A DNA stretch of 64,000 nt from NCBI GenBank assembly GCA_000471045.1, contig KI301992.1:440217-504216 (forward strand), written 5' to 3'. The position numbers were made by a program, and so were the translations under genes. Within the stretch, counting starts at the first letter, position 1, and each line of letters begins with the position of its first letter. The DNA comes from an actinobacterium LLX17 (GTDB lineage: Bacteria; Actinomycetota; Actinomycetes; Propionibacteriales; Nocardioidaceae). The notes beneath the pieces are model-generated. The model ran no database searches, had not been told where the DNA came from, and worked only from the letters and a program-made list of their open reading frames with translations. Below are positions 364 to 54,996 of this stretch, piece by piece.

Positions 364-948
364 TCAGACCGGCGTGCTGGGCGCCCTGACCATGCGGATC
401 GCCAGGTCCGCGTGCAGGTCGGCCAGCTCGCTCGCGGTGTGAGCGCCTGAGGGCTCGAACCACCGCACCAGGTCGACGCTGAGCGACAGCACGGCTCGCG
501 CCGTGCCGCGCACGTCGGCCACCTCGAGGACGCCCTCGTCGACCCCCGCGACGAGGGCGTCCCGCAGGTGCTGCTCCATCCGCCGGCGCAGGTCCGCGAT
601 GACCGCGCGGTGCTCGGGTGTGAGCGCACCGAACTCGTACTGCACGACCCGGCCGATGCGGCTGTTGCGCGCGTGCCAGTCGCTGAACGCCCGCACCATG
701 GCCCGGATGCGCTCGATGGGCTCGTCGCTCTCGGCCGATGCTGCTGACAGGACGCGCATGGCGTCCTCGTGCCCGGCCAGGGAGATCGCGAAGAGAAGCT
801 CTTCCTTGGTCGCGTGGTGCACGTAGACCGCGGCGGGGCTCATCTGCGCGCGCGACGCAATGTCACGCGTCGTCGTGGCGCCGTAGCCGTGCTCGGCGAA
901 CGCCTCGGTGGCGGCCTGGAGCAGGCGGTCACGCGCGGTCACTGTCAT
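364..948 (-). CDS. TetR-family transcriptional regulator
   Basis: A 194-aa TetR/AcrR-type repressor. The N-terminal helix-turn-helix covers about residues 6-52 (AFAEHGYGATTTRDIASRA, then MSPAAVYVHHATKEELL), followed by a helical ligand-binding domain with no recognisable specificity. It is transcribed divergently from the acyl-CoA dehydrogenase, thiolase and SDR genes, and an inverted repeat CTAAGC-N4-GCTTAG lies in the shared intergenic region at 997-1012. By analogy with other actinobacterial TetR proteins beside beta-oxidation genes, it probably represses that operon and itself and is released by an acyl-CoA. The ATG at 948 gives the usual TetR length. Family certain, ligand and targets inferred. 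Confidence 0.9.
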   Translation of the reverse strand: MTVTARDRLLQAATEAFAEHGYGATTTRDIASRAQMSPAAVYVHHATKEELLFAISLAGHEDAMRVLSAASAESDEPIERIRAMVRAFSDWHARNSRIGRVVQYEFGALTPEHRAVIADLRRRMEQHLRDALVAGVDEGVLEVADVRGTARAVLSLSVDLVRWFEPSGAHTASELADLHADLAIRMVRAPSTPV

Positions 949-4349: not shown

Positions 4350-4394
4350 AACATGAGGAATCCCTCATGTAAAACTTGAGGAAGTCCTCATGTT
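4350..4394 (+). promoter_or_regulatory. fas promoter with two inverted-repeat operators
   Basis: Operator 1 (4350-4371) has arms AACATGAGG and CCTCATGTA, operator 2 (4373-4394) arms AACTTGAGG and CCTCATGTT; each has a 4-bp spacer and the centres are 23 bp apart. A -10 box AAAACT (4371-4376) lies between them and runs into operator 2, so bound protein should block initiation. The same arrangement occurs before the carboxylase gene at 16531-16581. The region 4297-4349 shows nothing else. Confidence 0.8.
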
Positions 4395-4437
4395 TCGTCA
4401 TGATGGAAGGACTTGCCGACCACGAGGGGTTCTTTCT

Positions 4438-7400
4438 GTGACCACGTTCGATGCCGATCTCGCCCACACGACCGACCGGACCGTCACGCGCCCCGGCGCC
4501 TTGCTGGATCGACTGCGCGACGGTGGTGCCTCGTACGGCGTGATCCTCGGTGGGCAGGGTGGCCCGTGGCTGCCGACGCTGGCCGAGCTGGTCCGTGACC
4601 ACGGCCTCGGCGGTGAGTTGCTCGCGCTGGTGCGTCGTGCGGAGGATCGCCTGGCGCCCGTCGCCCACGAGCTGGCTCGTGTCGATGCGCCGTTCGAGCC
4701 CCTCGCCTGGGCCGACGCGCTCGCCGTGGGGGAGTCCGCCGAGGACCTCGACGCGCCGACCGTGCCGAGCGAGTCCACGCTCGCCGCTCCGGCGACGTCC
4801 GTGCCCGGCATCCTGCTCGCCCAGCTGGCCGCCGTGCGCGCGCTGCGCGGCTGGGGCCTCGACCCGACCGCGAACGTGCCGGTGGCCGGTCACTCGCAGG
4901 GTTCGCTCGCCGCTGCGGTCGTCGCGGGTGCCGACGAGCTCGACGTGCTGGTTCTCTCGCGCCTGGTCGGCGTCGCGACCCAGCTCGTCGCTCGCCGCCG
5001 CGGACTGCTGGGCGGCATCGGGCGTCCCGTCATGCTTGCCGTCACCGGCGTGCGACCGGAGCAGGTCGACGAGATCCTCGCCGAGCTGCCCCCGTCGCTC
5101 CGCGTGGTGCGCCGCATGCGCAACGCCCGCCGTGGCGTCGTGCTCTCCGGACCGTCCGAGGGCCTCGCGACCGTGCAGGCGCGCTTCGCCGAGGTCGCAG
5201 CCGAGCAGAAGGCCGCCCGTGACCGCAAGGAGACCGGCGGCGCCCCCTTCGCCCCCGTCCTCGACGAGCTGCCCGCCGCGGCCGCCTTCCACCACCCGGA
5301 CCTCGCCGAGGTCGCCGACGTCGTCGCCGGCTGGGCGCCGGCGGTCGGCCTCGACGCCGACTGGACCCGCTCGCTCACCGCGGACGCGATCATCGACCCC
5401 GTCGACTGGGTCGCCGACCTGGCCTCCGTGCTCGACGCCGGCCCTCAGTGGCTGCTCGACCTCGGACCCACGAACCTCGCCACGCAGCTCTCCACGCGGG
5501 AGGCGAAGGTGCGCGGCGCCGCGTGCCTGGCCGTCACGACCCGCCGCGGTGCCCGCGAGCTCGTCGCGCCCGGCGCGGCGCCCGTGCGGCCCACCCCGTG
5601 GTCGGCCCACCTGCCCCGCGTCGTGCACCTGCCCGACGGCTCGGTGCGCCTCGAGACCGCCTTCACGCGCCTGACCGGCCACTCGCCGATCCTGCTGGCC
5701 GGCATGACCCCCACGACCGTCGACGCTCCGATCGTCGCCGCCGCCGCGAACGCCGGCTTCTGGGCCGAGCTCGCCGGCGGTGGCCAGGTCACCGAGGAGA
5801 TCTTCAACGCCCGGATCGCCGAGCTCGACGGCCTGCTGGAGCCGGGCCGCGGCTACTCCTTCAACTCCCTGTTCCTCGACCCGTACCTGTGGAAGCTGCA
5901 GCTCGGGCAGAAGCGCTTGGTGCAGCGGGCCCGCGCGGCCGGCTCGCCGATCGAGGCCGTCATCGTCACCGCCGGCATCCCCGAGCTCGACGAGGCCGTC
6001 GCGCTCGTGGAGGAGCTGCGGGAGGTCGGCATCGAGCACGTCGTCTTCAAGCCGGGCACCGTCCGGCAGATCAAGCAGGTGCTGGCGATCGCCGAGGCCG
6101 TCGCACCCGTCCCGATCATCGTGCAGATCGAGGGGGGCAAGGCCGGTGGCCACCACTCGTGGGAGGACCTCGACGAGCTCCTCATCACCACCTACCCCGA
6201 GCTGCGCGCGGCATCCAACGTCGTCGTCTGCGTCGGCGGAGGCATCGGCACGCCCGAGGCCGCGTCGTCCTACCTGACCGGCGAGTGGGCGCGCGACCAC
6301 GACCAGCCGCTGATGCCCGTCGATGGCATCCTCGTCGGCACGGCCGCGATGGCCACGCTCGAGGCCACGACGGCCCCGGAGGTCAAGCAGCTGCTGGTCG
6401 ACACCCCGGGCACGTCCGCCTGGATCGGTGCCGGCGCGGCCGTGCGCGGCATGTCGTCCGGCCGCAGCCAGCTGGGCGCCGACATCCACGAGATCGACAA
6501 CACTGCCTCGCGCACCGGTCGTCTGCTGGACGAGGTCGCCGGTGACGCCGACGCCGTGGCCGAGCGTCACGACGAGATCGTCGATGCCATCAACCGGACC
6601 GCCAAGCCGTACTTCGGCGACGTCGCCGCGATGACCTACGGTGCGCTCCTCGAGCGCTTCGTCGATCTCAGCACCCTTGACGGGACCTTCCTTGACGTCT
6701 CGTTCCGCGACCGCTTCCACCGGTTGCTGCAGCGGGCCGAGGCGCGCCTGAGCGCGGTCGACCACGGACCGATCGCCACCCTCTTCGGCGAGGCGACCGA
6801 CGCTTCCGACGCCGGAGCCGCGCTCGCCGTGCTTCGCGAGACGTACCCGACCGTCGAGGAGGTGCCCCTGCACCCCGCCGACGTCGCGTTCTTCGTCGAC
6901 GTCTGCCGCATGCCGGGCAAGCCGGTCACCTTCGTGCCGGTCATCGACAAGGACGTCCGTCGCTGGTGGCGCTCGGACTCGCTGTGGCAGGCCCACGACC
7001 CGCGCTACTCCGCCGACCAGGTCTGCGTGATCCCCGGCCCCGTCGCGGTCGCGGGCATCAGGCGCACCGACGAGCCGGTGGCCGAGCTGTTGCAGCGCTT
7101 CGAGGACGAGACCGTCGACGGCCTGCTGGCCGCCGGCCGCTCCGCCGGACGTCAGCCGGGTCGCCGCCGCGTGGACGGCGCCCACCCCGCGCTCGCCCTG
7201 GCACTCGCCGCGCACGACGTCGTGTGGGCAGGACGGGCCGCCGTCAGCCCCGTGCGTCGCGTCGGCGACGACTGGATCGTCACGGCCCCCGACCGGGCCG
7301 AGTCGCCGACCACCGGCGCCACCCTCGAGGCCGCCGCGGATCAGGTCCGCCTGACGGTCCCGGTCGGACCGTCGCGCAGTGTGACGATCGAGATCTCCGT

Positions 7401-10400
7401 GCCGGCCGAGGTCGCCACCGGTGCTGCGCCGGTCGTGACGACCTCAGCAGCCGCAGGCGCCATGAGCGAGCTGCTGCGCTCGGCTGCCGGCGGTTCCGTG
7501 CCGGAGGTCGAGGACGGCCGCGCCGTCGCGACTGTCTCGTGGACCCCCGACCTGGCCGCCGACCACGCGGGCGTGACCCGCGAGTCCGCCGGAGACCTCG
7601 CGGTTCCCGACGTGCTGGTGGGCCTGGCCTGGCCGGCCGTCTTCGCCGCGATCGCCGCCACGATGACCGAGGACGGCATCCCGGTCGTGGAGGGCATGCT
7701 CGACCTGGTGCACCTCGACCACGCGATCGCCGTGCCGAGCGCTCTGCCGACGACCCGCACCGACCTGCGCGTCACCGCCACCGCCTCGGACGTCGAGGAC
7801 ACCGAGGTCGGCCGCGTCGTCGCGATCGACGTGACCATCGCCAGCGCCGACGGCGTCATCGCGACCCTGCGCGAGCGCTTCGCGATCCGCGGCCGCACGG
7901 GTGCCGGATCGCTGTCCGACCCCGAGCGCGCCGGTGGCGTGCTGGGCGACGTGCGTGACACGCCGCGTCGCCTGCGCGGAGAGACCTCCCTCAAGGCGCC
8001 GACGGACCTGCGCGCCTTCGCCGCCGTCACGGGCGACCACAACCCGCTGCACACCAGCGTGGCCGCCGCCCACCTCGCCGGCCTGGACGGCCCGATCGTC
8101 CACGGCATGTGGCTGTCGGCCGTCGCCCAGCGCACGCTCAGCCGCCGCATCGAGGGCTGGACCGCGCGCTTCATGAGCCCGGTCCGTCCCGGTGCGGGTG
8201 TCGACGTCCGTGCCGATCGCATCGGCCTGGACGAGGCCACCGGCGCCGAGGTCGTCGAGGTGACCGTGCGCAGCGAAGGTGAGCTGGCGATGTCCGCCAC
8301 GGCCCGCCTGGCTCCGCCGCGCACCGCCTACGCCTTCCCGGGCCAGGGCATCCAGCACGCCGGCATGGGCATGGCCGGCTACCAGCGTTCGAAGGCCGCC
8401 CGCGAGGTCTGGGACCGCGCCGACGCCCACACCCGGTCCGCCTTGGGCTTCTCGATCCTGACCGTCGTGCGTGACAACCCGACTGTGCTCGTCGCCAACG
8501 GTGTCACCCACCGCCATCCCGACGGCGTGCTCTTCCTGACGCAGTTCACCCAGGTGGCGATGGCCGTGCTCGGCTCGGCGCAGATGGCCGAGCTGCGCGA
8601 GGCCGGCGCCTTCGTCGACGACGCGGTGCTGGCCGGACACTCGGTGGGCGAGTACAACGCGCTCGCCGCCGTCTCCGGCGTCATCCCGCTCGAGGCCGTC
8701 GTCGAGGTGGTCTTCCAGCGCGGTTCCGTCATGCACACGCTCGTCGAGCGCGACGCCGACGGACGCAGCGACTACCGCCTCGCCGCCATCCGCCCCTCGC
8801 AGATCGGCCTGGACGACACCACCGTCAAGGCCTACGTCGACGGCGTGGCCGAGCGCACCGGCGAGTTCATCCAGATCGTCAACTACAACCTGCGCGACTC
8901 GCAGTACGCGCTGGCCGGCTCGATCCGTGGCCTGAAGGCCCTGGAGGCCGACGTCGCCGAGCGCCGCGAGCGCTTCAACGGCAAGGGCGCCTTCATCTAC
9001 GTGCCCGGCATCGACGTGCCGTTCCACTCGCGGGTGCTGCACGGCGGCGTGCCGGACTTCCGCGCCCGCCTCGAGGAGCTGCTGCCGCCGGAGATCGATC
9101 CGTCCACCCTGCTCGGTCGCTACGTGCCCAACCTGGTGCCGCGTCCGTTCAGCCTCGAGCGGGACTTCATCACCGAGATCGCCGAGCTGGTCGACTCCCC
9201 GCAGATCAACGCTGTGCTCGCCGACTTCGATGCGTGGTCGGCTCGCCCGTCCGCGCTGTGCCGCACGGTGCTGATCGAGCTGCTGGCCTGGCAGTTCGCC
9301 AGCCCGGTCCGTTGGATCGAGACGCAGGACGTGCTGTTCACGCCGGTCGCCGACGGTGGCCTCGGGGTCGAGCGCTTCGTCGAGGTGGGGGTCGGCCAGT
9401 CGCCGACCGTCGCGAACCTCGCGTCGTCCACCCTGAAGCTGCCCGGTGGCCGCGGTGCCGCGGTGCAGGTGCTCAACATCGAGCGCGACGCCGCTGCCGT
9501 CTTCGCCACCGACGAGGAGCCGCCCGCCGTCGAGGAGGAGGCCCCGGCCGAGACCGAGGCGTCCACCTCCGGGCCGACCACCTCCGCCCCGGTGGCGGCT
9601 GCTCCCGCCGCCGGCGGGCCGGCCACCCAGACCGCCGCCGACCTGCCCTTCACGGCCTCCGACGCCACCCGCGTGCTGGTGGCCTGGTGGACCAAGATGC
9701 GTCCCGACCAGATCGGCGCCGCCGACTCGATCGAGTCGCTGTGCGACGGTGCGTCGTCGCGCCGCAACCAGCTGCTGGTCGACCTCGGCGGCGAGCTCTC
9801 GCTCGGCGCCATCGACGGCGCGGCCGACGCCGACATGCCGACGCTGGCCGGACAGGTCGACGGGCTCGCCCGCGGCTACAAGCCGTTCGGCCCGGTGCTC
9901 ACCGCCGCCCTGGGCGATCACCTCAAGAAGGTCCTCGGCCCGACGGGCAAGCGTCAGGCGAGCATCGCCGAGCGCGTGACCGAGGTCTGGCAGCTCGGCG
10001 GCGGCTGGGCCAGCCACGTGCTCGCCGAGGTCGCCCTCGCGACCCGTGACGGCGCCAGCGTGCGTGGGGGAGACCTGGGCGGCGCGTCCGTGGGCTCCGC
10101 TGCGGACCTCGACGGCGTGATCGACACCGCGGTGGCGCAGGTCGCCACCGCCCACGGCACGACCGTCGCGATGCCCACTGGCGCCAGCGCCGAGGGCGGC
10201 ACGGTCGACGTCGCCGCACTGGGTGAGCTCACCGCGCACATCGGCGGACCGGACGGCGCCCTTGCGTCGGCCGCCCGCGTCATCCTCGACAAGCTGGGGC
10301 TCACGCCGGCGGTCGAGCACACCGAGGTCGACGACACCGACGCCGCGATCGTCGAGCTGGTCGACTCCGAGCTGGGGTCCGACTGGGCCCAGCGCGTGGC

Positions 10401-13400
10401 GCCGGCGTTCGACGCCCGCCGCGCGGTGCTGCTCGACGACCGGTGGGCCTCCGCCCGCGAGGACCTCGCCCGCATCGCCCACGGGGACGACCTCACGGTC
10501 GACTTCACGGGCACCGGCGAGGCCGTCGCACGGCAGGCCACCTTCTGGGCCTCCACCGTCGCCGACTCCCGGCTGGCCGAGCGTCTGCACGAGATCGCCG
10601 CGGCCGCCCGGACCACCGAGAAAGGCGCCTGGGACGGTGACGTCGCCGTCGTGACCGGTGCCGGGCCCGGCTCGATCGCTGCTGCTGTCGTCGGAGACCT
10701 GCTGGCCGGTGGTGCGACGGTCGTCGCCACGTCGTCATCGCTCGGTCCGAAGCGGCTCGCGTTCTACAAGGACCTCTACCGCAGCCGGGCCCGCGCGGGC
10801 GCGACGCTGTGGGTCGTGCCGGCGAACCTGGCGTCCTTCGCGGACGTCGACGCCCTGGCGTCCTGGGTCACCGCGGAGCAGACCGTCACCGCGGGCCCGA
10901 CCACCACCGTGGTCAAGCCGGCGCTCACGCCCACGCTGCTCCTGCCGTTCGCGGCCGGGCCGGTCGCCGGTGACCTCGCCGAGGTCGGGGGCCGGACCGA
11001 GACCGACATGCGCATCCTGCTGTGGTCGGTCGAGCGTCTCATCGGTGCCTTCGCCACGAACGGACGCGACCACGACCTGGCCGCGCGCCTGCACGTGGTC
11101 CTGCCGGGCTCGCCCAACCGCGGCACCTTCGGTGGCGACGGCGGCTACGGCGAGGCCAAGGCCGCGCTCGACGCGATCTGCGCCAAGTGGAAGGTCGAGC
11201 CGCGCTGGGCCGAGCGCGTGACGCTCGTGCACGCCCTCATCGGCTGGGTGCGCGGCACCGGGCTGATGGGTGCCAACGACCCGCTGGTCGACGCTGTCGA
11301 GGCGGCCGGCATCACCACGTGGTCGACCGAGGACATGGCCGCCGCCCTGCTGCGCGAGTGCGACGGCCCGGCTCGTGCCGCCGCCGCGCACGCCCCGGCG
11401 ACGGTCGACCTGACCGGTGGCCTGCTGGGCGCCGACGTCAACCTGCGTGCCCTCGCCGAGGGTGTCGAGATGCCCGCCGCCGACGAGCCCGACGAGGTCG
11501 CGACGATCGGTGCGCTGATGCCGTCGCCGGCCGCCGTCGTCGAGCACGCCCCGGCCCCGGAGTGGGCCGAGATCGACGCCCGCCCCGAGGACCTCGTGGT
11601 CATCGTGGGCGCCGGCGAGCTCGGTCCCTACGGCTCGTCGCGCACGCGTTTCGAGGTCGAGGTCTCCGGCGAGCTCTCGGCCGCCGGCGTGCTCGAGCTG
11701 GCCTGGACCACCGGACTCGTCCGGTGGGAGAACGACGGCTGGGTCGACGCCGAGTCCGGTGACACCGTGGCGGAGGAGGACCTGCACGAGCGCTACCACG
11801 ACGTCGTGCTCGCGGCCTCCGGCGTCCGCACCTACGGTGACGACGGCACGATCGTCGACGGAACCATTCCGCTCCTCACCAGCGTCTACCTCGACGAGGA
11901 CCTCACCTTCACCGTCGGTGGCCGCACCGAGGCCGAGGCCATGCGCGCCGCCGACCCCGAGCACACCTCGATCACCGAGGGCGAGGACGGCGAGTGGGTC
12001 GTCACCCGCACGGCCGGCACCGAGATCCGCGTGCCGCGTCGACATCAGCTGACCCGCACGGTGGGCGGCCAGATCCCGACCGGCTTCGACCCCACGGTGT
12101 GGGGCGTCCCGGCCGAGATGGTCGAGTCGGTCGATCGTGTGGCGCTGTGGAACCTGATCTGCACGGTCGACGCGTTCCTCGGTGCCGGGTTCAGCCCCGC
12201 TGAGCTGATGCGCTGGGTCCACCCGGCGCTCGTGGCCAACACGCAGGGCACCGGCATGGGCGGCATGTCGTCGATGCAGTCCCTCTACCTCGACACGCTG
12301 CTGGGCGAGGCCAAGGCGAACGACATCCTGCAGGAAGCGCTGCCGAACGTCATCGCCGCGCACGTCGTGCAGTCCTACGTCGGCTCGTACGGCTCGATGA
12401 TCCATCCGGTCGCCGCGTGCGCCACCACGGCCGTCTCGGTCGAGGAGGGCGTCGACAAGATCAGGCTGGGCAAGGCCGAGTTCGTGGTCTCCGGCGGCTT
12501 CGACGACCTGAGTGCCGAGGGCATCGTGGGCTTCGCCGACATGTCCGCCACGGCCGACACCGAGGCCATGCGCGCCAAGGGTCTCGAGGACCGGTACCTG
12601 AGCCGGGCCAACGACCGCCGTCGTGGCGGGTTCGTGGAGTCACAGGGCGGCGGCACGCTGCTGCTCGCACGCGGCGACATCGCCCTCGCTGCCGGGCTGC
12701 CCGTGCTGGGCGTCGTCGCCTACGCGGGCTCGTTCGCCGACGGCGTGCACACGTCGATCCCGGCGCCGGGCATCGGTGCCCTGGCCGCGGGCCTCGGTGG
12801 CGAGCGTTCGCCGCTGGCCCGTGGGCTCGCCTCGGTGGGCTTGACCCACGACGACGTCGCGGTCGTGTCCAAGCACGACACCTCGACGGCAGCCAACGAC
12901 CCGAACGAGTCCGAGCTGCACGAACGACTCGCCGGAGCGCTGGGACGTGGTGAGGGCAACCCCCTCTTCGTCCTCTCGCAGAAGGCGCTGACCGGGCACG
13001 CCAAGGGCGGCGCCGCGGCCTTCCAGCTGATCGGCCTGTGCCAGGTGCTGGAGAGCGGTGTGCTGCCGCCCAACCGGAGCCTGGACTGCGTCGACGACGT
13101 GCTGGCCGAGCACGAGCACCTCGTGTGGCTGCGTCGTCCGCTCGCAGCAGGCGGGCTGAAGGCCGGTCTCGTGACGAGCCTCGGGTTCGGGCACGTCGCC
13201 GGACTGATCGCCCTGGCCCATCCGGCAGCGTTCCTCGCTGCCGTGCCGGCCGACCAGCGCGAGGACTACCTCGCCCGGGCGCAGGCCCGGCGCGTGGCCG
13301 GTCGAGTGCGACTGGTCGAGGCGATGCACGGGGGCGCTCCTGCCTACCGTCGTCCGGCTGACCGTCGCCTCGGCGACGCCGGCGTGCGTGAGCGCGAGGC

Positions 13401-13467
13401 CGGGCTGCTGCTCGACCCGCAGGCGCGCCTCGACGACGGTGTCTACGCGGGACCGGCCTGCCGGTGA
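4438..13467 (+). CDS. fas: Type I fatty acid synthase (single-chain, FAS-I)
   Basis: Multifunctional fatty acid synthase of 3,009 aa with the domain order of mycobacterial FAS-I: acetyltransferase (GHSQG, Ser153), enoyl reductase (about 400-750, with EGGKAGGHH), double-hotdog dehydratase (GDHNPLH, His1201), malonyl/palmitoyl transferase (GHSVGEY, Ser1402), an Ala/Pro-rich linker and acyl carrier domain (phosphopantetheine Ser1773 in DGASSRRNQ), ketoreductase (VVTGAGPGS, about 2070) and ketosynthase (Cys2661 in HPVAACATT, then KHDTSTAANDP and LTGHAKGG). All catalytic motifs are intact. The start is GTG 4438 with GAGGGG 8 nt upstream; an ATG at 4390 lies inside the operator and is rejected. Overlaps acpS by 4 nt. 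It makes acyl-CoAs from acetyl- and malonyl-CoA with NAD(P)H in the cytosol. Confidence 0.97.
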   Translation: MTTFDADLAHTTDRTVTRPGALLDRLRDGGASYGVILGGQGGPWLPTLAELVRDHGLGGELLALVRRAEDRLAPVAHELARVDAPFEPLAWADALAVGESAEDLDAPTVPSESTLAAPATSVPGILLAQLAAVRALRGWGLDPTANVPVAGHSQGSLAAAVVAGADELDVLVLSRLVGVATQLVARRRGLLGGIGRPVMLAVTGVRPEQVDEILAELPPSLRVVRRMRNARRGVVLSGPSEGLATVQARFAEVAAEQKAARDRKETGGAPFAPVLDELPAAAAFHHPDLAEVADVVAGWAPAVGLDADWTRSLTADAIIDPVDWVADLASVLDAGPQWLLDLGPTNLATQLSTREAKVRGAACLAVTTRRGARELVAPGAAPVRPTPWSAHLPRVVHLPDGSVRLETAFTRLTGHSPILLAGMTPTTVDAPIVAAAANAGFWAELAGGGQVTEEIFNARIAELDGLLEPGRGYSFNSLFLDPYLWKLQLGQKRLVQRARAAGSPIEAVIVTAGIPELDEAVALVEELREVGIEHVVFKPGTVRQIKQVLAIAEAVAPVPIIVQIEGGKAGGHHSWEDLDELLITTYPELRAASNVVVCVGGGIGTPEAASSYLTGEWARDHDQPLMPVDGILVGTAAMATLEATTAPEVKQLLVDTPGTSAWIGAGAAVRGMSSGRSQLGADIHEIDNTASRTGRLLDEVAGDADAVAERHDEIVDAINRTAKPYFGDVAAMTYGALLERFVDLSTLDGTFLDVSFRDRFHRLLQRAEARLSAVDHGPIATLFGEATDASDAGAALAVLRETYPTVEEVPLHPADVAFFVDVCRMPGKPVTFVPVIDKDVRRWWRSDSLWQAHDPRYSADQVCVIPGPVAVAGIRRTDEPVAELLQRFEDETVDGLLAAGRSAGRQPGRRRVDGAHPALALALAAHDVVWAGRAAVSPVRRVGDDWIVTAPDRAESPTTGATLEAAADQVRLTVPVGPSRSVTIEISVPAEVATGAAPVVTTSAAAGAMSELLRSAAGGSVPEVEDGRAVATVSWTPDLAADHAGVTRESAGDLAVPDVLVGLAWPAVFAAIAATMTEDGIPVVEGMLDLVHLDHAIAVPSALPTTRTDLRVTATASDVEDTEVGRVVAIDVTIASADGVIATLRERFAIRGRTGAGSLSDPERAGGVLGDVRDTPRRLRGETSLKAPTDLRAFAAVTGDHNPLHTSVAAAHLAGLDGPIVHGMWLSAVAQRTLSRRIEGWTARFMSPVRPGAGVDVRADRIGLDEATGAEVVEVTVRSEGELAMSATARLAPPRTAYAFPGQGIQHAGMGMAGYQRSKAAREVWDRADAHTRSALGFSILTVVRDNPTVLVANGVTHRHPDGVLFLTQFTQVAMAVLGSAQMAELREAGAFVDDAVLAGHSVGEYNALAAVSGVIPLEAVVEVVFQRGSVMHTLVERDADGRSDYRLAAIRPSQIGLDDTTVKAYVDGVAERTGEFIQIVNYNLRDSQYALAGSIRGLKALEADVAERRERFNGKGAFIYVPGIDVPFHSRVLHGGVPDFRARLEELLPPEIDPSTLLGRYVPNLVPRPFSLERDFITEIAELVDSPQINAVLADFDAWSARPSALCRTVLIELLAWQFASPVRWIETQDVLFTPVADGGLGVERFVEVGVGQSPTVANLASSTLKLPGGRGAAVQVLNIERDAAAVFATDEEPPAVEEEAPAETEASTSGPTTSAPVAAAPAAGGPATQTAADLPFTASDATRVLVAWWTKMRPDQIGAADSIESLCDGASSRRNQLLVDLGGELSLGAIDGAADADMPTLAGQVDGLARGYKPFGPVLTAALGDHLKKVLGPTGKRQASIAERVTEVWQLGGGWASHVLAEVALATRDGASVRGGDLGGASVGSAADLDGVIDTAVAQVATAHGTTVAMPTGASAEGGTVDVAALGELTAHIGGPDGALASAARVILDKLGLTPAVEHTEVDDTDAAIVELVDSELGSDWAQRVAPAFDARRAVLLDDRWASAREDLARIAHGDDLTVDFTGTGEAVARQATFWASTVADSRLAERLHEIAAAARTTEKGAWDGDVAVVTGAGPGSIAAAVVGDLLAGGATVVATSSSLGPKRLAFYKDLYRSRARAGATLWVVPANLASFADVDALASWVTAEQTVTAGPTTTVVKPALTPTLLLPFAAGPVAGDLAEVGGRTETDMRILLWSVERLIGAFATNGRDHDLAARLHVVLPGSPNRGTFGGDGGYGEAKAALDAICAKWKVEPRWAERVTLVHALIGWVRGTGLMGANDPLVDAVEAAGITTWSTEDMAAALLRECDGPARAAAAHAPATVDLTGGLLGADVNLRALAEGVEMPAADEPDEVATIGALMPSPAAVVEHAPAPEWAEIDARPEDLVVIVGAGELGPYGSSRTRFEVEVSGELSAAGVLELAWTTGLVRWENDGWVDAESGDTVAEEDLHERYHDVVLAASGVRTYGDDGTIVDGTIPLLTSVYLDEDLTFTVGGRTEAEAMRAADPEHTSITEGEDGEWVVTRTAGTEIRVPRRHQLTRTVGGQIPTGFDPTVWGVPAEMVESVDRVALWNLICTVDAFLGAGFSPAELMRWVHPALVANTQGTGMGGMSSMQSLYLDTLLGEAKANDILQEALPNVIAAHVVQSYVGSYGSMIHPVAACATTAVSVEEGVDKIRLGKAEFVVSGGFDDLSAEGIVGFADMSATADTEAMRAKGLEDRYLSRANDRRRGGFVESQGGGTLLLARGDIALAAGLPVLGVVAYAGSFADGVHTSIPAPGIGALAAGLGGERSPLARGLASVGLTHDDVAVVSKHDTSTAANDPNESELHERLAGALGRGEGNPLFVLSQKALTGHAKGGAAAFQLIGLCQVLESGVLPPNRSLDCVDDVLAEHEHLVWLRRPLAAGGLKAGLVTSLGFGHVAGLIALAHPAAFLAAVPADQREDYLARAQARRVAGRVRLVEAMHGGAPAYRRPADRRLGDAGVREREAGLLLDPQARLDDGVYAGPACR

Positions 13468-13856
13468 CCGTCGTGGGCGTGGGCGTCGACCTCGTGCACG
13501 TGCCGTCGTTCGCCGAGCAGCTGGACCGCCCGGGCACGCGATTCGCGGAGGCGTTCACGCCCGGTGAGCGCGCCGACGCCCACGACCGCCCCGACGCGCC
13601 TGCGGCCCACCTGGCCGCGCGGTGGGCGGCCAAGGAGGCCGTGGTCAAGGCGTGGTCGGCGGCGCTCTTCGGCAGTCCGCCGGTGATGGGGGAGCAGGTG
13701 CACCGCTTGATCGAGGTCGTCACCGACGCGTGGGGGCGGCCCGGCATCCGCCTGCACGGCGAGGTGGCCGAGCACCTGGCCGGGCACACGCTGCACGTCT
13801 CGCTCTCCCACGACGCCGACCACGCCACGGCCTACGTCACCCTCACCCGCCCCTGA
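13464..13856 (+). CDS. acpS: Holo-[acyl-carrier-protein] synthase
   Basis: A 130-aa AcpS-type phosphopantetheinyl transferase that moves 4'-phosphopantetheine from CoA to the carrier Ser of the FAS-I acyl carrier domain. Mg-binding Asp9 in VGVGVDLVHV and Glu58 in RWAAKEAVVKAW are present, with FTPGER between them. GTG 13464 forms the GTGA overlap with the fas stop, so synthesis of enzyme and modifier is coupled, as in mycobacteria where acpS follows fas. The protein has the usual length. Downstream is a cluster of short repeats and then a convergent gene. Confidence 0.95.
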   Translation: MTVVGVGVDLVHVPSFAEQLDRPGTRFAEAFTPGERADAHDRPDAPAAHLAARWAAKEAVVKAWSAALFGSPPVMGEQVHRLIEVVTDAWGRPGIRLHGEVAEHLAGHTLHVSLSHDADHATAYVTLTRP

Positions 13857-13970
13857 GCGGTGAATAGGTGGCCAAATGCGTCGGGCGGCGGTGAGTGAGG
13901 CGCCGAATGCCGCCGCGATTTGGCCTCTAGCTCACCTCCCGGAGCGCCGTTTGGCCTCTAGCTCACCGCC
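13857..13970. repeat. Cluster of four ~24-bp intergenic repeats
   Basis: Two copies of a unit like GCGGTGAATAGGTGGCCAAAT (13857-13880, 13888-13911) are followed by two copies on the opposite strand (13914-13937, 13946-13969). The last two share an identical 18-bp core TTTGGCCTCTAGCTCACC at 13919-13936 and 13950-13967, with a 31-bp period. The facing copies can fold into a large hairpin between convergent acpS and tetR. Probably a REP-like element that may also act as a terminator. Confidence 0.65.
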
Positions 13971-14000
13971 CAGAACTCACCGCCTTGGGCCGCGGGCCCG

Positions 14001-14624
14001 TCAGGACTCGGCGGAGAGCAGGTAGGCGGCGAGAAGACGCTTGAGCTCGATGACGGCCTCGTTGTGCTCCTGGCCGTCGCGGATCGAGAAGTTGAGCATC
14101 GAGTAGGTGACGTGCACCAGCACCTCGGCCATGATGCGGCGGCGCTCGCGCGGCGTGCCGGGCGTCAGCGGCGCAAGCGCGCGAGCGACTTCGGCCGCCA
14201 GCTCGCGTTCCGTGACGGCCGCCGTCGCGCGGGTGGCCGGGGTCGACTGCACGGCGTGCCAGACGGCCCGACGCGACGGGTCGGCGACCCACAGCGCGGC
14301 GACGTGGTCGATGAGCCGGTCCAGGAACCGCAGCCAGTCCAACGACGGGATCTGACCGGCGAACTCGACCAGCTCGTCGCGCACGGCCACGGCGTCCTGC
14401 CGGTCCAGCTCGCACACGATGACGTACTTGTTCGCGAAGAACTGGTAGAGCGTGCCGATCGGCAGCTGCGCCCGCTGCGCGACCTCCTCGCACGTGAACG
14501 ACTCGAAGCCGACCTCCAGCAGCAGGGCTCGCGAGACCTGCAGCAGGTGGTCGAACTTGATGCGGCTGCGCTCCTGCGTGGGGCGCCGCCGCGGCTCGAG
14601 GAGCTCTGCGGTCACGCGGCTCAC
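14001..14624 (-). CDS. TetR-family transcriptional regulator
   Basis: A 207-aa TetR/AcrR protein with an N-terminal arginine-rich tail, HTH at about residues 25-68 (FTCEEVAQRAQLPIGTLYQFF) and a helical effector domain. GTG 14624 is used. It is the last gene of a leftward operon SDR - phosphotransferase-like - tetR that starts from the promoter carrying the TAAGCGCTTGCTTA palindrome at 16444. It lies between the fas operon and the carboxylase operon, whose promoters share another operator pair, so it is a candidate regulator of either motif; the sequence does not decide. It is not obviously similar to M. tuberculosis FasR from memory. Confidence 0.9.
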   Translation of the reverse strand: MSRVTAELLEPRRRPTQERSRIKFDHLLQVSRALLLEVGFESFTCEEVAQRAQLPIGTLYQFFANKYVIVCELDRQDAVAVRDELVEFAGQIPSLDWLRFLDRLIDHVAALWVADPSRRAVWHAVQSTPATRATAAVTERELAAEVARALAPLTPGTPRERRRIMAEVLVHVTYSMLNFSIRDGQEHNEAVIELKRLLAAYLLSAES

Positions 14625-14647
14625 CCTAACGGGTTCGCCGGGGCCCT

Positions 14648-15658
14648 TCAGCGCGTCGCGGCCAGCCCACCCTCGATCAGCGGAGCGATCGCGTCGCCGA
14701 TGCCGTCGAACCCGTCACCGAGCGTCTGTCCCTGCGAGTGCCGCAGGTAGATGCCCTCGAGGATCACGGCCAGCTTGAAGAACGCGAGGCCGAGGTGGAA
14801 GTCCATCGTGCTGACGTCACGGCCGGAGCCGGCCGAGTAGCGCTGCAGGACGTCCTCGGGGGACGGGTACCCGGGGGCCGCGGGGGCGTCGGTGACGATC
14901 GCGCCGCTGCCTGCGAAGTGCGACAGCTGCTGGTAGGCCAGCATCAGCGCGAGGTCGGTCAGCGGGTCGCCGAGCGTGCTCATCTCCCAGTCGAGCACAG
15001 CGGTGATGTGGTCTGACTCGTCGACGAGTGCGTTGTCGAGCCGGTAGTCGCCGTGCACGATCGTGCCGTCACCACCGGCGGGCAACCGCTGCTCGAGGCG
15101 ATCGGCCAGCTCGTCGATGCCCGGCAGGTCGCGGCTGCGCGAGGCGTCGAGCTGCTTCTTCCACCGACGCAGCTGACGCTCGAGGTAGCCGTCGGGACGA
15201 CCGAAGTCGGCCAGACCGACCTCGGCCGGGTCGACCGCGTGCAGCGCCACGAGGGTGTCGATGAGTCGCTCGCCGATCTGCTGCGTGCGCTCGGCGCCGA
15301 GCTCCTGCAGCTGGGCGGCACGGCTGTAGGGCGTGCCGGCCATGCGCTCCATGACGTAGAACGGGGCGCCGATGACCGAGTCGTCGGCGCACATCGCGTG
15401 CATCGTGGGCACGGGCACGGCGGTGCCGGCGAGCGCGCCCATGACGCGGTGCTCGCGCGACATGTCGTGGGCCGTGGCCAGCACGTGGCCCAGCGGGGGG
15501 CGCCGGACGATGACCTCGGTCGAGCCGTCGGTGACCGCGTACGTCAGGTTCGACTTGCCGCCAGTGATGAGCGAGGCCTCCAGTGGCCCGTCCAGGAGGC
15601 CGGGGGCCTCCCGGGCGAGCCAGCCGGAGAGCGCGTCGAGGTCGAGTCCGGAGACCAT
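14648..15658 (-). CDS. APH-fold phosphotransferase family protein (ACAD10/11-like)
   Basis: A 336-aa protein with the aminoglycoside phosphotransferase / choline kinase fold. The catalytic loop HGDYRLDN (about 205) and metal-binding DWEMSTLGDPLTD are intact, and the N-lobe carries the ITGGKSNLTY nucleotide loop. In Actinobacteria and in the N-terminus of human ACAD10/11, this subfamily is linked to acyl-CoA metabolism, where 4-hydroxyacyl-CoA phosphorylation has been shown, rather than antibiotic resistance. Its position directly after a FabG-like SDR (1-nt gap) and 23 nt before a tetR gene under a lipid-type operator fits a role in fatty-acid degradation. Substrate is inferred. Confidence 0.88.
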   Translation of the reverse strand: MVSGLDLDALSGWLAREAPGLLDGPLEASLITGGKSNLTYAVTDGSTEVIVRRPPLGHVLATAHDMSREHRVMGALAGTAVPVPTMHAMCADDSVIGAPFYVMERMAGTPYSRAAQLQELGAERTQQIGERLIDTLVALHAVDPAEVGLADFGRPDGYLERQLRRWKKQLDASRSRDLPGIDELADRLEQRLPAGGDGTIVHGDYRLDNALVDESDHITAVLDWEMSTLGDPLTDLALMLAYQQLSHFAGSGAIVTDAPAAPGYPSPEDVLQRYSAGSGRDVSTMDFHLGLAFFKLAVILEGIYLRHSQGQTLGDGFDGIGDAIAPLIEGGLAATR

Positions 15659-15659
15659 G

Positions 15660-16415
15660 TCAGTCCTTCGGTCCGCCGGCGACGTAGATGACCTGGCCCG
15701 AGACGAACCCGGCCGCCTCGCCGACGAAGAACGAGACGGTGTTGGCGATGTCGTCGGGCTGGCCGACGCGCGCCACGGGGATCTGCTCGGCGCTGAACTT
15801 GATGAAGTCGTCGAACGGCACGCCGATGCGCTCGGCGGTGGCCGCCGTCATGTCGGTCTGGATGAAGCCGGGCGCGATGGCGTTGGCGGTGACGCCGAAC
15901 TTGCCGAGCTCGATGGCGAGGGTCTTGGTGTAGCCCTGCAGTCCGGCCTTGGCGGCGGAGTAGTTGGCCTGGCCGCGGTTGCCCAGGGCCGAGGTCGACG
16001 ACAGGTTGACGATGCGGCCGAACTTCGCCTCGACCATGTACTTCTGCGTGGCCTTGACGGTGTTGAACGAGCCGCGCAGGTGGACGGCCATGACGGCGTC
16101 CCAGTCGTCGACGGTCATCTTGAAGAGCAGGTTGTCGCGGATGATGCCGGCGTTGTTGATGACGACGGTCGGCGCACCGAGCTCCTCGGCGACGCGCGAG
16201 ACGGCGGCCTCGACGCTGTCGGCGTCGGACACGTCGGCGCCGACGGCGATGGCCTTGCCGCCGGCGTTGGTGATGGCGTCGGCGACGGGCTGGGCCTGGC
16301 CGGCGTCGAGGTCGAGGACGGCGACGTTGAGTCCGTCGGCGGCGAGGCGCTGGGCGGTGGCGGCGCCGATGCCGCGGGCGGCTCCGGTCACGATCGCGGT
16401 GCGGGTCTCGGTCAC
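15660..16415 (-). CDS. SDR-family oxidoreductase (3-oxoacyl reductase type)
   Basis: A 251-aa classical SDR close to FabG: AIVTGAARGIG cofactor motif at the N-terminus, NNAG motif, catalytic YSAAKAGL, and a C-terminus ending FVSGQVIYVAGGPKD. GTG 16415 is chosen because AAGGAG lies at the right distance upstream (CTCCTT at 16421-16426 on the plus strand) and the protein then starts in the standard place; the longer reading frame upstream would cross the operator. It leads the leftward operon with the phosphotransferase-like and TetR genes, so a role in acyl-CoA degradation is more likely than in de novo synthesis, which is done by FAS-I here. Confidence 0.92.
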   Translation of the reverse strand: MTETRTAIVTGAARGIGAATAQRLAADGLNVAVLDLDAGQAQPVADAITNAGGKAIAVGADVSDADSVEAAVSRVAEELGAPTVVINNAGIIRDNLLFKMTVDDWDAVMAVHLRGSFNTVKATQKYMVEAKFGRIVNLSSTSALGNRGQANYSAAKAGLQGYTKTLAIELGKFGVTANAIAPGFIQTDMTAATAERIGVPFDDFIKFSAEQIPVARVGQPDDIANTVSFFVGEAAGFVSGQVIYVAGGPKD

Positions 16416-16443
16416 GAGAGCTCCTTGGGTTCGAGGTGTGCTG

Positions 16444-16459
16444 GTAAGCGCTTGCTTAG
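16444..16459. promoter_or_regulatory. Second copy of the TAAGCAAGCGCTTA-type operator
   Basis: GTAAGCGCTTGCTTAG, the reverse complement of the 997-1012 site with one terminal mismatch. It lies 28 bp before the SDR start codon, where a repressor would block the leftward operon. Predicted to be bound by the same regulator as the site at 997. Confidence 0.75.
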
Positions 16460-16530
16460 GTCCTTGAGCACGGTAGCGCATCCGTGACGCAGACGGAACG
16501 GGCCTGGGTGGCGTCGAGGGTGACGCAACG

Positions 16531-16581
16531 AACATGAGGTACTCCTCATGTTTTGTGTATACTTGAGGAAACCCTCATGTT
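16531..16581 (+). promoter_or_regulatory. Carboxylase promoter with the fas-type operator pair
   Basis: Operator 1 (16531-16552) has perfect 9-bp arms AACATGAGG / CCTCATGTT around TACT; operator 2 (16560-16581) has arms TACTTGAGG / CCTCATGTT around AAAC. Centres are 29 bp apart, against 23 at fas. A near-consensus -10 TATACT (16558-16563) overlaps the left arm of operator 2, in the same register as the fas -10. This ties carboxylase and fas transcription together. Confidence 0.85.
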
Positions 16582-16592
16582 TAGGAGGCACC

Positions 16593-18086
16593 GTGACGCA
16601 GACCGACCTGCACCAGCTGGACGCCACCGCCCATCGCGCCGCCCTCACGCAGCGCCGTCGTGACGCCGCGGTGCGCGTCGAGCCACGCGGTCGGCGGCAG
16701 TACACGGCCCGGGAACGGGTCGACATGTTCGTGGACGCCGGGTCCTTCGTCGAGATCACGCCGTTGCGCACGGCTGACGGACGAGGGACCGGCGTGCTCA
16801 CGGGCTGGGGGATGGTCGAGGGCCGCCCGGTCGTCGTCATCGCCCACGACGCCGCTGTCGCCTCCGGCGCCATCGGTGCGGTGTTCGCGAACGCCGTGAC
16901 CAAGGCCCAGCGCCTGGCGATCGACCGGGGCTTCCCGATCGTCTACGTCAACGACTCCGGCGGCGCCCGGGTGCCCGACGGCATCTTCGCCCTGCACGGT
17001 TGCGGCGAGGTCTTCGCCCTCAACGTCGCCGCCCAGCGGCGGGTGCCGCAGATCTCGGTGATCCTCGGGCCGTGCGCCGGAGCCGCCGCCTACTCGCCGG
17101 CCCTGACCGACTGGACGATCATGGTCAAGGGTCACGGTCACATGTTCCTGACCGGCCCCGACATCGTGAAGGCCGCGACCGGCGAGGATGCCAGCGCCGA
17201 CGACATCGGCGGCAGCCGTCTGCACACCGAGAAGTCCGGCGTGGCTCACCTGGAGGCCGAGGACGAGGAGTCCGCGCTCGCCGCGGCCCGCCAGATCCTC
17301 TCGTTCCTGCCGTCCCACGTCGGCGCCGCGCCGGCGATCACCGAGCCCGAGCCCGCCGATCCCACGGCGGTCTCCCAGCTGCCGTTCGTCGTGCCCGAGC
17401 GGGCCAGCGTCGTCTTCGACATGCACCGCGTGCTCGACGGCGTCCTGGACGCCGGTCCCCGCCTCGAGCTCATGCCGGGCCACGCCCGCAGCGTGCTCAC
17501 CGTGCTGGGCCGGCTCGAGGGCCGCCCAGTCGGCATCGTGGCCAACCAGCCCGACGCCCGCGGCGGCATCCTCGACTCGCTGGCGTCGGTCAAGGCGGCC
17601 CGGTTCGTCGAGTTCTGCGGCCGCTTCGGCCTGCCGGTGCTGACGTTCGTCGACGTGCCCGGCTTCCTGCCGGGCACGGTCGAGGAGGGACGTGGCGTCA
17701 TCACGCATGGCGCCAAGCTCCTCAAGGCCTACATCGAGGCGCCCACGCCCGTGCTCACCGTCGTGGTGCGCAAGGCGTATGGCGGCGCCTACATCGCGAT
17801 GGGTGCCAAGTCGCTGGGTGCGGACTTCCAGTGGGCCTGGTCGAACGCCGAGATCGCGGTGATGGGACCCGGCGGTGCCGTCACGCTGCTCAACCGGCGC
17901 GAGCTGGCCGCCGCCGACGACCCGATCGCCCTGCGCGACGAGCTGGCCGCGACGTACCGCGAGGAGGTCGCGCGCCCGTACCTCGCCGCGGAGGCCGGCA
18001 TCGTCGACGACGTGATCCTGCCCGAGGAGACCCGAGGCCGGCTCTCCGACGCACTCGAGATGCTGACCGCGGGCACCGCTCGATGA
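16593..18086 (+). CDS. Acyl-CoA carboxylase, carboxyltransferase (beta) subunit
   Basis: A 497-aa carboxyltransferase of the AccD/PccB family that moves carboxyl from carboxybiotin to acetyl- or propionyl-CoA, giving malonyl- or methylmalonyl-CoA. Both crotonase-fold halves are present: N-half with NDSGGARVPDGI and GPCAGAAAYSPAL, C-half with GIVANQPDARGG, VDVPGFLPG and RKAYGGAYIAMG. GTG 16593 follows AGGAGG by 4 nt; an upstream ATG at 16548 lies in the operator. It overlaps the biotin carrier gene by 4 nt. No biotin carboxylase subunit is in the window, so the alpha subunit must be encoded elsewhere. Shared operators with fas suggest it supplies malonyl-CoA. Confidence 0.93.
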   Translation: MTQTDLHQLDATAHRAALTQRRRDAAVRVEPRGRRQYTARERVDMFVDAGSFVEITPLRTADGRGTGVLTGWGMVEGRPVVVIAHDAAVASGAIGAVFANAVTKAQRLAIDRGFPIVYVNDSGGARVPDGIFALHGCGEVFALNVAAQRRVPQISVILGPCAGAAAYSPALTDWTIMVKGHGHMFLTGPDIVKAATGEDASADDIGGSRLHTEKSGVAHLEAEDEESALAAARQILSFLPSHVGAAPAITEPEPADPTAVSQLPFVVPERASVVFDMHRVLDGVLDAGPRLELMPGHARSVLTVLGRLEGRPVGIVANQPDARGGILDSLASVKAARFVEFCGRFGLPVLTFVDVPGFLPGTVEEGRGVITHGAKLLKAYIEAPTPVLTVVVRKAYGGAYIAMGAKSLGADFQWAWSNAEIAVMGPGGAVTLLNRRELAAADDPIALRDELAATYREEVARPYLAAEAGIVDDVILPEETRGRLSDALEMLTAGTAR

Positions 18087-18343: not shown

Positions 18344-19075
18344 GTGCACGTCTACCGGATGCCCATGCGCTGGGCCGACCTCGACCAGCTGAACCACGTC
18401 AACAACGTGGTCTACCTCGCCTACGCGGCCGAGTCGCGTGCCGCCATGGTCGAGGAGGGGCTGCTCGACGCCGCTCTCGTGCCCGAGCGGGTGACGGTGG
18501 AGTTCCTGCTGCCGATGCAGCTGACGCGCCGTCCCGTGGTCATCGAGTCGACCCTCGACGGCGCCGATGGTGCTGGCAGTGAGGTGGTGCAGGAGATCGT
18601 GCAGCACCACGACGACGAGCGGCGGTTGTTCGCCCGCGTGACGACCCGGCTCGGTCCCGGCCTGGACCTCGGGCCGGCGACGATCGACACCCCGCCCATG
18701 CCGTTCCACGGCCGCCGTGCCGACCTCGACCAGTCGGGGCTCGTCGATCCCGTGCGCGTCTTCGAGTACTTCCAGGAGACCCGCGTCTTGTCGCTGGCCG
18801 CGCTGCGGCACGCTCTCGGCGCCTTCGTCATCGCGCGGCTCGAGGTCGAGTACGGGCCGCGGGCGACCTGGCGTCCCGAGCCGTGGGACGTCTCCACCGA
18901 GCTGCGCAGCCTGGGTGGCGCGTCGTTCACGGTCGGCGCGGAGTGGCGCGACGGCTCCACGGTGCACGGCCGCAGCACGGCGGTGCTGGTGGGCTTCGAC
19001 CCGGTCACGCAGCGCTCACGCCGGTTCTCGGAGGAAGAGCGCGAGGCCCTGCAGAGCTTCGGCCGCACCCGCTGA
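18344..19075 (+). CDS. Acyl-CoA thioesterase family protein (double hotdog)
   Basis: A 243-aa protein with two hotdog domains. The first starts with RWADLDQLNHVNNVVYL, the 4HBT active-site segment with Asp and His; the second begins near residue 140 (VFEYFQETRVLSL). Such proteins hydrolyse acyl-CoA thioesters or act as acyl-ACP thioesterases. It lies 33 bp after the biotin carrier gene on the same strand and is probably in the same operon, possibly limiting acyl-CoA levels or releasing FAS-I products. GTG 18344 is 6 nt after a GACGAT sequence that could be a weak -10. Substrate not known. Confidence 0.85.
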   Translation: MHVYRMPMRWADLDQLNHVNNVVYLAYAAESRAAMVEEGLLDAALVPERVTVEFLLPMQLTRRPVVIESTLDGADGAGSEVVQEIVQHHDDERRLFARVTTRLGPGLDLGPATIDTPPMPFHGRRADLDQSGLVDPVRVFEYFQETRVLSLAALRHALGAFVIARLEVEYGPRATWRPEPWDVSTELRSLGGASFTVGAEWRDGSTVHGRSTAVLVGFDPVTQRSRRFSEEEREALQSFGRTR

Positions 19076-54348: not shown

Positions 54349-54996
54349 GTGGTGCCACGTCGTGAGCCGCTCGACCGAGAGCGCATCGTGATGGCCGCCG
54401 TCGCGTTGGCGGACGAGTCCGGGGCCGAAGGCGTCACCATGCGGGCCGTCGCGCGTCGCGTCGGCGTGGAGGCGATGTCGCTCTATCACCACGTGCGGGG
54501 ACGGGAGGCGATGCTCGACGGCATGGTCGACGTGGTCTTCGCGGAGATCGTGCTGCCCGAGCCCACCGCCGACTGGCGGGACGCCATGCGGGCCCGGGCG
54601 GTCTCGGCGCGCGAGGCCCTGCGACGGCACCCGTGGGCGGTGGGCCTGATGGACTCACGTCGCCAGCCCGGCCCGGCCACGCTGCAGCACCACGACGCGG
54701 TGCTCGGCCTCCTGCGCGCGGGCGGCTTCTCGGTCGCGGGCGCCGTGCACGCGTTCTCGGCCGTCGACAGCTACGTGTACGGCTTCGTGCTGCAGGAGGT
54801 GAGCCTGCCGTTCAGCACGCCGGACGAGCTCGAGACCGTGGCGGACGAGATCACGGCGCAGATGCCCGTGGGTCTCTACCCGCACCTGGCCGAGGTGATG
54901 GAGGAACAGGTTCGTGGCGGCACGTACGCCTACGCCGACGAGTTCGCGATCGGCCTGGACCTGATTCTCGGCGCGCTCGAGCCCGACGCCTGGTGA
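54349..54996 (+). CDS. TetR-family regulator (TetR_C_1-like)
   Basis: A 215-aa TetR protein resembling the tetracycline-repressor branch: HTH at about residues 8-50 (EGVTMRAVARRVGVEAMSLYHHV), then the C-terminal domain with LLRAGGFSVAGAVHAFSAVDSYVYGFVLQE. GTG 54349 (or 54352) is preferred because AAGGAGG lies 6-9 nt upstream; a GTG at 54343 sits inside that ribosome site. Two palindromic operators lie upstream, shared with the divergent NAD(P)-binding gene. No efflux pump is adjacent. Inducer unknown. Confidence 0.9.
   Translation: MVPRREPLDRERIVMAAVALADESGAEGVTMRAVARRVGVEAMSLYHHVRGREAMLDGMVDVVFAEIVLPEPTADWRDAMRARAVSAREALRRHPWAVGLMDSRRQPGPATLQHHDAVLGLLRAGGFSVAGAVHAFSAVDSYVYGFVLQEVSLPFSTPDELETVADEITAQMPVGLYPHLAEVMEEQVRGGTYAYADEFAIGLDLILGALEPDAW

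Follow-up and report, generated by a model that had tools for sequence, protein, structure and literature searches.

Do the inverted repeats ahead of a fatty acid synthase gene and those ahead of an acyl-CoA carboxylase operon in one actinobacterial locus form a common operator, and which protein reads it? The question arises from a 64,000-bp stretch of the actinobacterium LLX17 (contig KI301992.1, positions 440,217 to 504,216; hereafter the window), which carries fas, encoding a type I fatty acid synthase (FAS-I), an acyl-CoA carboxylase operon (acc) and, between the two, the gene of a TetR-type regulator (14001-14624). The nearest named relatives by FAS-I (tblastn) are Aeromicrobium. An earlier note on this DNA had proposed one operator common to fas and acc, which is supported, and had named the TetR protein as candidate regulator, which is supported by its co-occurrence with FAS-I and the operator and by the joint change of its recognition helix and the operator. 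The four repeats are very probably the operators of an acyl-CoA-sensing repressor, this TetR protein, orthologous to FasR of Corynebacterium, which would shut off both acc and fas.

Results

Inverted repeats at the fas and acc promoters

The earlier note had described two inverted repeats at each promoter with centre spacings of 23 bp at fas and 29 bp at acc, and all four 22-bp repeats (Table 1) as well as both spacings were confirmed. Compared with the motif AACWTGAGGNNNNCCTCAWGTT, the sites at 4373 (AACTTGAGGAAGTCCTCATGTT) and 16531 (AACATGAGGTACTCCTCATGTT) have no mismatch and those at 4350 (AACATGAGGAATCCCTCATGTA) and 16560 (TACTTGAGGAAACCCTCATGTT) have one each. Scanning the window for AACWTGAGGNNNNCCTCAWGTT with up to three mismatches returned only these four sites, with a mean of 0.00 in 100 dinucleotide shuffles. 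The bare 14-bp core, allowing two mismatches, gave 45 matches versus 33.7 expected, a number reached by 3 of the 100 shuffles; on its own the core is thus only slightly above chance level, indicating that the outer arms matter. Sites with a 3-bp centre were absent from the window at up to three mismatches.

In the genome-wide scan that the earlier note had suggested (3.00 Mb, one contig) the 24-bp form was found at five places with up to three mismatches, compared with none in a control read backwards, and the fifth place lies ahead of a 56-codon open reading frame (ORF). The genome contains 12 exact copies of the 14-bp core (backwards control: 0), four of them at fas and acc, one 27 bp 5' of the 56-codon ORF, one about 8 bp 5' of a 3-hydroxybutyryl-CoA dehydrogenase gene, five within predicted ORFs and one (L009) between divergent genes, without outer arms. 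To pick the genes around the sites, we used a simple rule of ORFs and third-position GC content in place of an annotation.

Relation to the FasR operator of Corynebacterium glutamicum

In the available portions of PMC6460773 and PMC7316851, FasR of C. glutamicum is a TetR repressor acting on accBC, accD1, fasA and fasB via fasO sites; the portion of PMC7316851 describes it as working together with acyl-CoA and regards oleoyl- and palmitoyl-CoA as its effectors. Its binding sequence is AaaANATGAcNaNNtCCTCAtNttT in the accessible part of the review PMC10933834, which cites Irzik 2014; the sites of other regulators in that part are unlike the operator described here. When AaaANATGAcNaNNtCCTCAtNttT as given there was compared with both strands of the window, only the four sites reached at least 10 of the 12 strict bases. 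On either strand each site agrees with 10-11 of the 12 strict bases and with 4-7 of the 8 looser ones; the highest agreement anywhere in the window, 18 of 20 defined bases, is that of fas operator 2. The earlier note did not recognise the motif as the mycobacterial or corynebacterial site; for the corynebacterial one this was wrong, as the motif matches the C. glutamicum consensus in register.

The likeness extends to the target pathway, FAS-I and acyl-CoA carboxylase in both cases, and to the regulator, since three orthologues of the Corynebacterium type are 51-55% identical to the window TetR. Judged by sequence, with TetR orthology and the fasO consensus at both promoters, the site belongs to the FasR/fasO kind. 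Several features nevertheless set the two systems apart. The operator is AaaANATGAcNaNNtCCTCAtNttT in the C. glutamicum excerpt and AAACWTGAGGNNNNCCTCATGTTT, in register, here; at consensus position 10 the corynebacterial sequence has C and the present one G, which makes the half-sites here more symmetric. Each promoter has two operators here, whereas eight Corynebacterium-type stretches have one clear site per fas promoter. Moreover, the TetR gene here lies between both targets, and the 3-hydroxybutyryl-CoA dehydrogenase gene is a likely extra target. Among genomes of group g121 with TetR, AAGATGACGNTTTCCTCATGAT-like fas sites were present in 8 of 8 (one with two core mismatches), and a further g121 set had fas sites in 3 of 3, more varied in sequence. 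For this and other groups behind our genome handles we infer the genus and family names, g121 being of the Corynebacterium type and g13 and g145 of the Mycobacterium type.

Distribution and identity of the TetR protein

The TetR_C_22 domain has a single match in this genome and, among 14 named control genomes, occurs in C. glutamicum only. Orthologues are set apart by a gap, with at least 51% identity versus at most 37% for other TetR proteins. They were found at 60% identity or more in 17 of 296 genomes of the class, including 9 of 9 of the genus, the next matches having at most 37%. We file the window TetR as an orthologue of C. glutamicum FasR, with cg2737 itself standing outside the alignment. 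In family f7 (121 genomes) FAS-I is present in 114 genomes, 97 of which have the TetR (partial in genome G411; a 24%-identical hit in G105 is left out of the count), and the TetR is present in none of the seven genomes without FAS-I. In g121 it occurs in 85 of 161 genomes. A set of 38 hand-picked genomes gave FAS-I in 15 and the TetR in 11 of these, the four without it belonging to g13, and in none of the 23 others.

All eight Corynebacterium-type stretches have the gene order bcp-tetR-acpS near fas; in L281 bcp-tetR is kept and acpS lies beside fas instead. We take bcp to be a neighbour of fasR in C. glutamicum itself. In three of three g13 genomes acpS and bcp lie close together without the TetR, which fits a loss in place. 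Only acpS was found in a g145 stretch, and neither acpS nor bcp in a stretch of a g121 genome without TetR.

FasR of Mycobacterium tuberculosis was ruled out as the type of this regulator, homology being confined to the DNA-binding domain: a profile of the window TetR matched 6o6n and 6o6p over residues 11-69 or 25-75 (E 1.3e-5 and 2.9e-5), and a single-sequence search gave no M. tuberculosis FasR match at E 0.01. In a Foldseek search with the AlphaFold model the nearest structures were FadR proteins (TM 0.61-0.67), and M. tuberculosis FasR appeared at rank 14. FadR proteins bind acyl-CoA. Since TetR folds resemble one another and the hits also include M. tuberculosis FasR, this nearness is a weak hint of acyl-CoA sensing.

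Conservation of the sites and link to the TetR gene

In a scan of 58 genomes all 37 of the genus, LLX17 included, had sites, with 147 places versus 2 in the backwards control (sums over the scan table); 21 genomes from other families of the order had 4 places versus 7 in the control. We then scanned the region from -450 to +60 of fas in 90 of 117 stretches, the rest having no usable fas start or less than 450 bp upstream. The TetR is present in 77 of the 90 stretches, absent in ten, of unknown status in two and truncated in one. With at most one core mismatch, the fas operator was found in 74 of the 77 loci with TetR (60 exact) and in 0 of the 10 without (backwards controls 3/77 and 0/10; shuffles about 2%), indicating that the motif is kept upstream of fas orthologues; its lack there had been named by the earlier note as a refuting result. 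The three exceptions are L311, which has a site with two mismatches, L272 (genome G290) and L275 (genome G346). Exact cores are also present in the two stretches of unknown TetR status and in G411. All Nocardia, Gordonia, Tomitella, Skermania and Speluncibacter loci in which a fas start was found have at least one site with up to three mismatches ahead of fas, whereas five Mycobacterium-type genomes (g13/g145) have no site with fewer than three core mismatches. The association of the operator with the TetR gene is thus well supported.

Joint changes of recognition helix and operator

The recognition helix, in a region where the structure model has a helix at residues 56-62, reads GSLYRYF in G346 and G373 and GT(L/I)YQ(F/Y)F in the others. 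L275 of G346 has three fas sites with a 3-bp centre; sites with such a centre and AACGCGAGG arms occur in both G346 and G373, AACGCGAGG forming the left arm. In G290 the site at L272 is degenerate (AACGTGAGGAGAGATTCGTGTT) and the helix region is GSLYQFFGNK, the TetR having GSLYQFFGNKYAI where the window TetR has GTLYQFFANKYVI. Two lineages with altered recognition helices thus carry altered operators, and helix and operator changed jointly. On the protein side, the exchange S20N in C. glutamicum FasR raises target expression according to the available portion of PMC7316851; its position may correspond to Ser-20, invariant in 24 aligned orthologues. The co-occurrence of gene and operator and the joint change make the TetR protein the likely operator binder.

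Promoter layout at fas and acc

The promoters were compared in 14 loci having both (the window, 11 Aeromicrobium, one Mumia and one unclassified). All 14 have two sites at each promoter, and the outer arms are kept in the relatives. The operator centres are 23 bp apart at fas in 14/14 loci and 28 bp (seven loci), 29 bp (five) or 30 bp (two) apart at acc; two fas sites with the 23-bp spacing also occur in Mumia L114 and Nocardioides jejuensis L118. At acc the -10 slot at the left edge of operator 2 is TATAGT or TATACT in ten loci and TTTACT, TAGAGT, TAAGGT or CAGTCC in the remaining four, and the ATGAGG slot within operator 1 sits 17-19 bp 5' of it, the usual range of a promoter spacer. At fas no -10 box is kept at the equivalent place in the 14 loci. 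There, nAnnAT stands 17 bp (eight loci), 18 bp (four) or 19 bp (two) downstream of the (T/A)TGAGG in operator 2, a pattern picked after inspection of the loci.

The earlier note had placed the -10 box in equal register with operator 2 at both promoters, which is not supported at fas, where the kept -10-like pattern lies 3' of operator 2. The fas -10 would thus lie downstream of operator 2 and the -35 inside it, so that operator 2 would cover the -10 and the start at acc, but the -35 and the spacer at fas. The note had also read its spacings, which are right, as a difference of about half a helical turn. Such a helical-phase rule is not needed: by simple arithmetic, the acc operators sitting 5-7 bp further apart yields the 17-19 bp between -35 and -10 at acc, and promoter geometry explains the difference between the two promoters.

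We infer the following scheme in all its parts: binding and repression by the TetR, acyl-CoA as effector, and the layout of the two promoters. On accumulation of the FAS-I product, long-chain acyl-CoA, the repressor would bind the paired sites and turn off acc, which supplies malonyl-CoA, as well as fas, which makes the fatty acids. The acc operators would cover the -35 (operator 1) and the -10 with the transcription start (operator 2), whereas at fas the -35 and spacer would be covered by operator 2, with operator 1 immediately upstream. Both arrangements should block RNA polymerase. This mechanism of repression dependent on acyl-CoA is taken over from corynebacterial FasR and from the overlap of operators and promoters.

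Points against the assignment and alternative readings

Several observations weigh against the TetR protein acting as such a repressor. Many of the 77 loci with TetR are from Nocardia species and are not independent. Seventeen FAS-I genomes of family f7 have no TetR (six of g13, six of g145, two of g125 and three of g121), and bcp is near the TetR gene in 31 of 76 named loci and in none of the Aeromicrobium loci checked. G411 keeps two exact cores before fas (L282, L276), and its TetR was found only as residues 114-206. The helix changes F62Y and A64Q are also seen with an unchanged operator and are therefore uninformative, leaving only T58S and Q61R as informative. No operator precedes the TetR gene of the window (three core mismatches at best), and the position of fas operator 1 would also suit an activator.

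The partial TetR of G411 may reflect a natural loss or an assembly fault. As no site precedes the TetR gene, autoregulation was ruled out in the window; a site before the TetR gene in Nocardioides jejuensis (L118:13045-13066, exact core) and in G290 (L283, one mismatch), amounting to 3 of 68 TetR loci scanned in two genomes, suggests autoregulation there.

The alternative that survives best leaves operators and TetR as proposed but makes the protein an activator at fas and a repressor only at acc, or has acyl-CoA release it from DNA. It would accommodate the location of operator 1 at fas, 5' of the proposed -35, and the 23-bp operator spacing kept there in all 14 loci, and, in the available excerpts, M. 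tuberculosis FasR is an activator of fas-acpS that long acyl-CoA releases. Operator 2, however, lies over the proposed -35 and spacer at fas and over the -10 and start at acc, which suits repression, and C. glutamicum FasR is described as a repressor acting with acyl-CoA in the available part of PMC7316851, so that we regard this alternative as unlikely. Still less probable is binding of the sites by another conserved factor, even though TetR_N has 42 matches in the genome, including two others within the window at about 784-924 (-) and about 54385-54519 (+) (G000:C1 441000-441140 and 494601-494735), and the sites persist in G411, where the TetR was recovered only in part. The TetR gene and the fas site co-occur across families and are both absent from ten FAS-I loci, helix and operator alter jointly, and the motif fits the consensus given for corynebacterial FasR in the review excerpt. 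That the repeats are RNA hairpins in leaders or chance palindromes is highly improbable: acc operator 2 would sit partly in the leader, but both fas repeats are upstream of the proposed start, the chance expectation in the window is 0.00 and the outer arms are kept. Chance palindromes were ruled out for the full motif by the shuffles and backwards controls. An Rfam scan of the window found two tRNAs.

Further candidate targets

The best-supported further target of the proposed FasR-type repressor is likely the 3-hydroxybutyryl-CoA dehydrogenase gene: a core with at most one mismatch lies between -150 and +20 at 12 of the 26 genus loci scanned (of 29), with 0.15 expected and one in the backwards control, and three more loci have a 3-bp-centre site, found by eye. 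Counts for further targets are lower bounds, as sites were fetched for part of the genus genomes. The 56-aa ORF (L017:1547-1717; G000:C1 about 939363-939533) is preceded by an operator at a distance of 23 bp. Its relatives, 55-61 aa long, have an operator nearby in at least eight genomes, this one included, and most end like HAWDEGGHL; the protein has no Pfam or NCBIfam match. Malic enzyme genes have an operator-like site 12-14 bp upstream in at least three genomes (L053, L056, L067, around position 3001), possibly linking NADPH supply to the regulon. In at least five genomes (L054, L064, L323, L327, L329, around 3001) an operator overlaps or touches the start of a gene for a 467-478 aa protein, divergent from a zinc-type quinone oxidoreductase gene; the protein has no Pfam match (L054, L323 and L329 scanned) and no NCBIfam match (L329).

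In the f7 genome G193 (L320, around 3001) a site with two mismatches is flanked by two divergent genes, one encoding an acyl-CoA carboxylase carboxyltransferase and the other a biotin ligase. This single case is perhaps due to chance; a genuine site would mean that this family, too, has acc among its targets. The other two-mismatch sites fetched away from fas in f7 genomes had no apparent link to lipid synthesis. The two-mismatch matches in L060 (within a gene) and L068 look like chance. L324 and L328 (around 3001) contain a palindrome, AACATGAGAG-NN-CTCTCATGTT, ahead of a molybdopterin oxidoreductase gene (by Pfam for L328), which has arms like those of the operator and a different core.

The features of the locus are collected in Table 1. 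For fas, the GTG at 4438 was preferred as start over a longer ORF from 4390.

Table 1. Operators, proposed promoter elements and genes of the fas-acc locus in window coordinates
Feature	Position	Strand	Basis
fas operator 1, fasO-like inverted repeat	4350..4371	+	Motif scan; 23 bp from operator 2 in 14/14 loci
fas operator 2, holds proposed -35 (TTGAGG 4376-4381)	4373..4394	+	Motif scan
Proposed fas -10 CATGAT	4399..4404	+	17 bp after TTGAGG; inferred from pattern
fas, type I fatty acid synthase	4438..13467	+	ORF; tblastn relatives in named genomes
acpS, holo-ACP synthase	13464..13856	+	NCBIfam NF000831 above cut-off
TetR-type regulator, FasR orthologue	14001..14624	-	Pfam TetR_N and TetR_C_22
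acc operator 1, holds proposed -35 (ATGAGG 16534-16539)	16531..16552	+	Motif scan, locus comparison
acc -10 TATACT	16558..16563	+	Overlaps operator 2 by 4 bp
acc operator 2, over -10 and expected transcription start	16560..16581	+	Motif scan, locus comparison
Acyl-CoA carboxylase carboxyltransferase subunit (Carboxyl_trans)	16593..18086	+	Pfam PF01039; GTG start preceded by AGGAGG
Biotin carboxyl carrier protein, 75 aa	18083..18310	+	Pfam PF00364
Acyl-CoA thioesterase-like protein	18344..19075	+, as acc genes	Pfam PF13279

Discussion

The locus thus has a system of a known kind, FasR/fasO, in another order, with paired operators and probably a larger regulon; among the open-licence PMC papers listed by our searches none describes this regulator in other genera or in Aeromicrobium. 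Other regulators of fatty acid synthase genes in Actinobacteria resemble it in part. M. tuberculosis FasR, in the available excerpts, likewise is a TetR-family regulator of fas-acpS responsive to long acyl-CoA, has three inverted repeats in the target promoter and, unlike corynebacterial FasR, is described as an activator. Its locus tag is presumably Rv3208. MabR and Streptomyces FasR also regulate fatty acid synthase genes but differ in being of the PucR type (by the title of PMC11617747) and in having type II fatty acid synthase targets.

A broader and tentative reading, which we consider possible though somewhat less probable than its opposite, is that FasR and its operator are the original control module of actinobacterial FAS-I and travelled with the synthase across orders. 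Operator and helix would have changed together, from a 4-bp to a 3-bp centre and from TGAGG to CGAGG arms, Mycobacterium would have lost the module in place and substituted a non-orthologous TetR activator, and in Aeromicrobium the module would have reached new targets, including the 55-61 aa protein that may be a lipid-state effector.

With these results the motif becomes an assignable regulon beyond the order in which FasR was described, and the protein to test is named. The name FasR covers two regulators that are not orthologous, and in Mycobacterium-type genomes (3/3 in g13) the fas-acpS-bcp neighbourhood persists in the absence of the regulator described here. The natural changes of helix and operator provide a ready case for the way in which spacing and bases are read by a TetR protein. 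As a regulon, the set of fas, acc, 3-hydroxybutyryl-CoA dehydrogenase and, in some species, malic enzyme would tie malonyl-CoA supply, and perhaps that of NADPH, to one signal.

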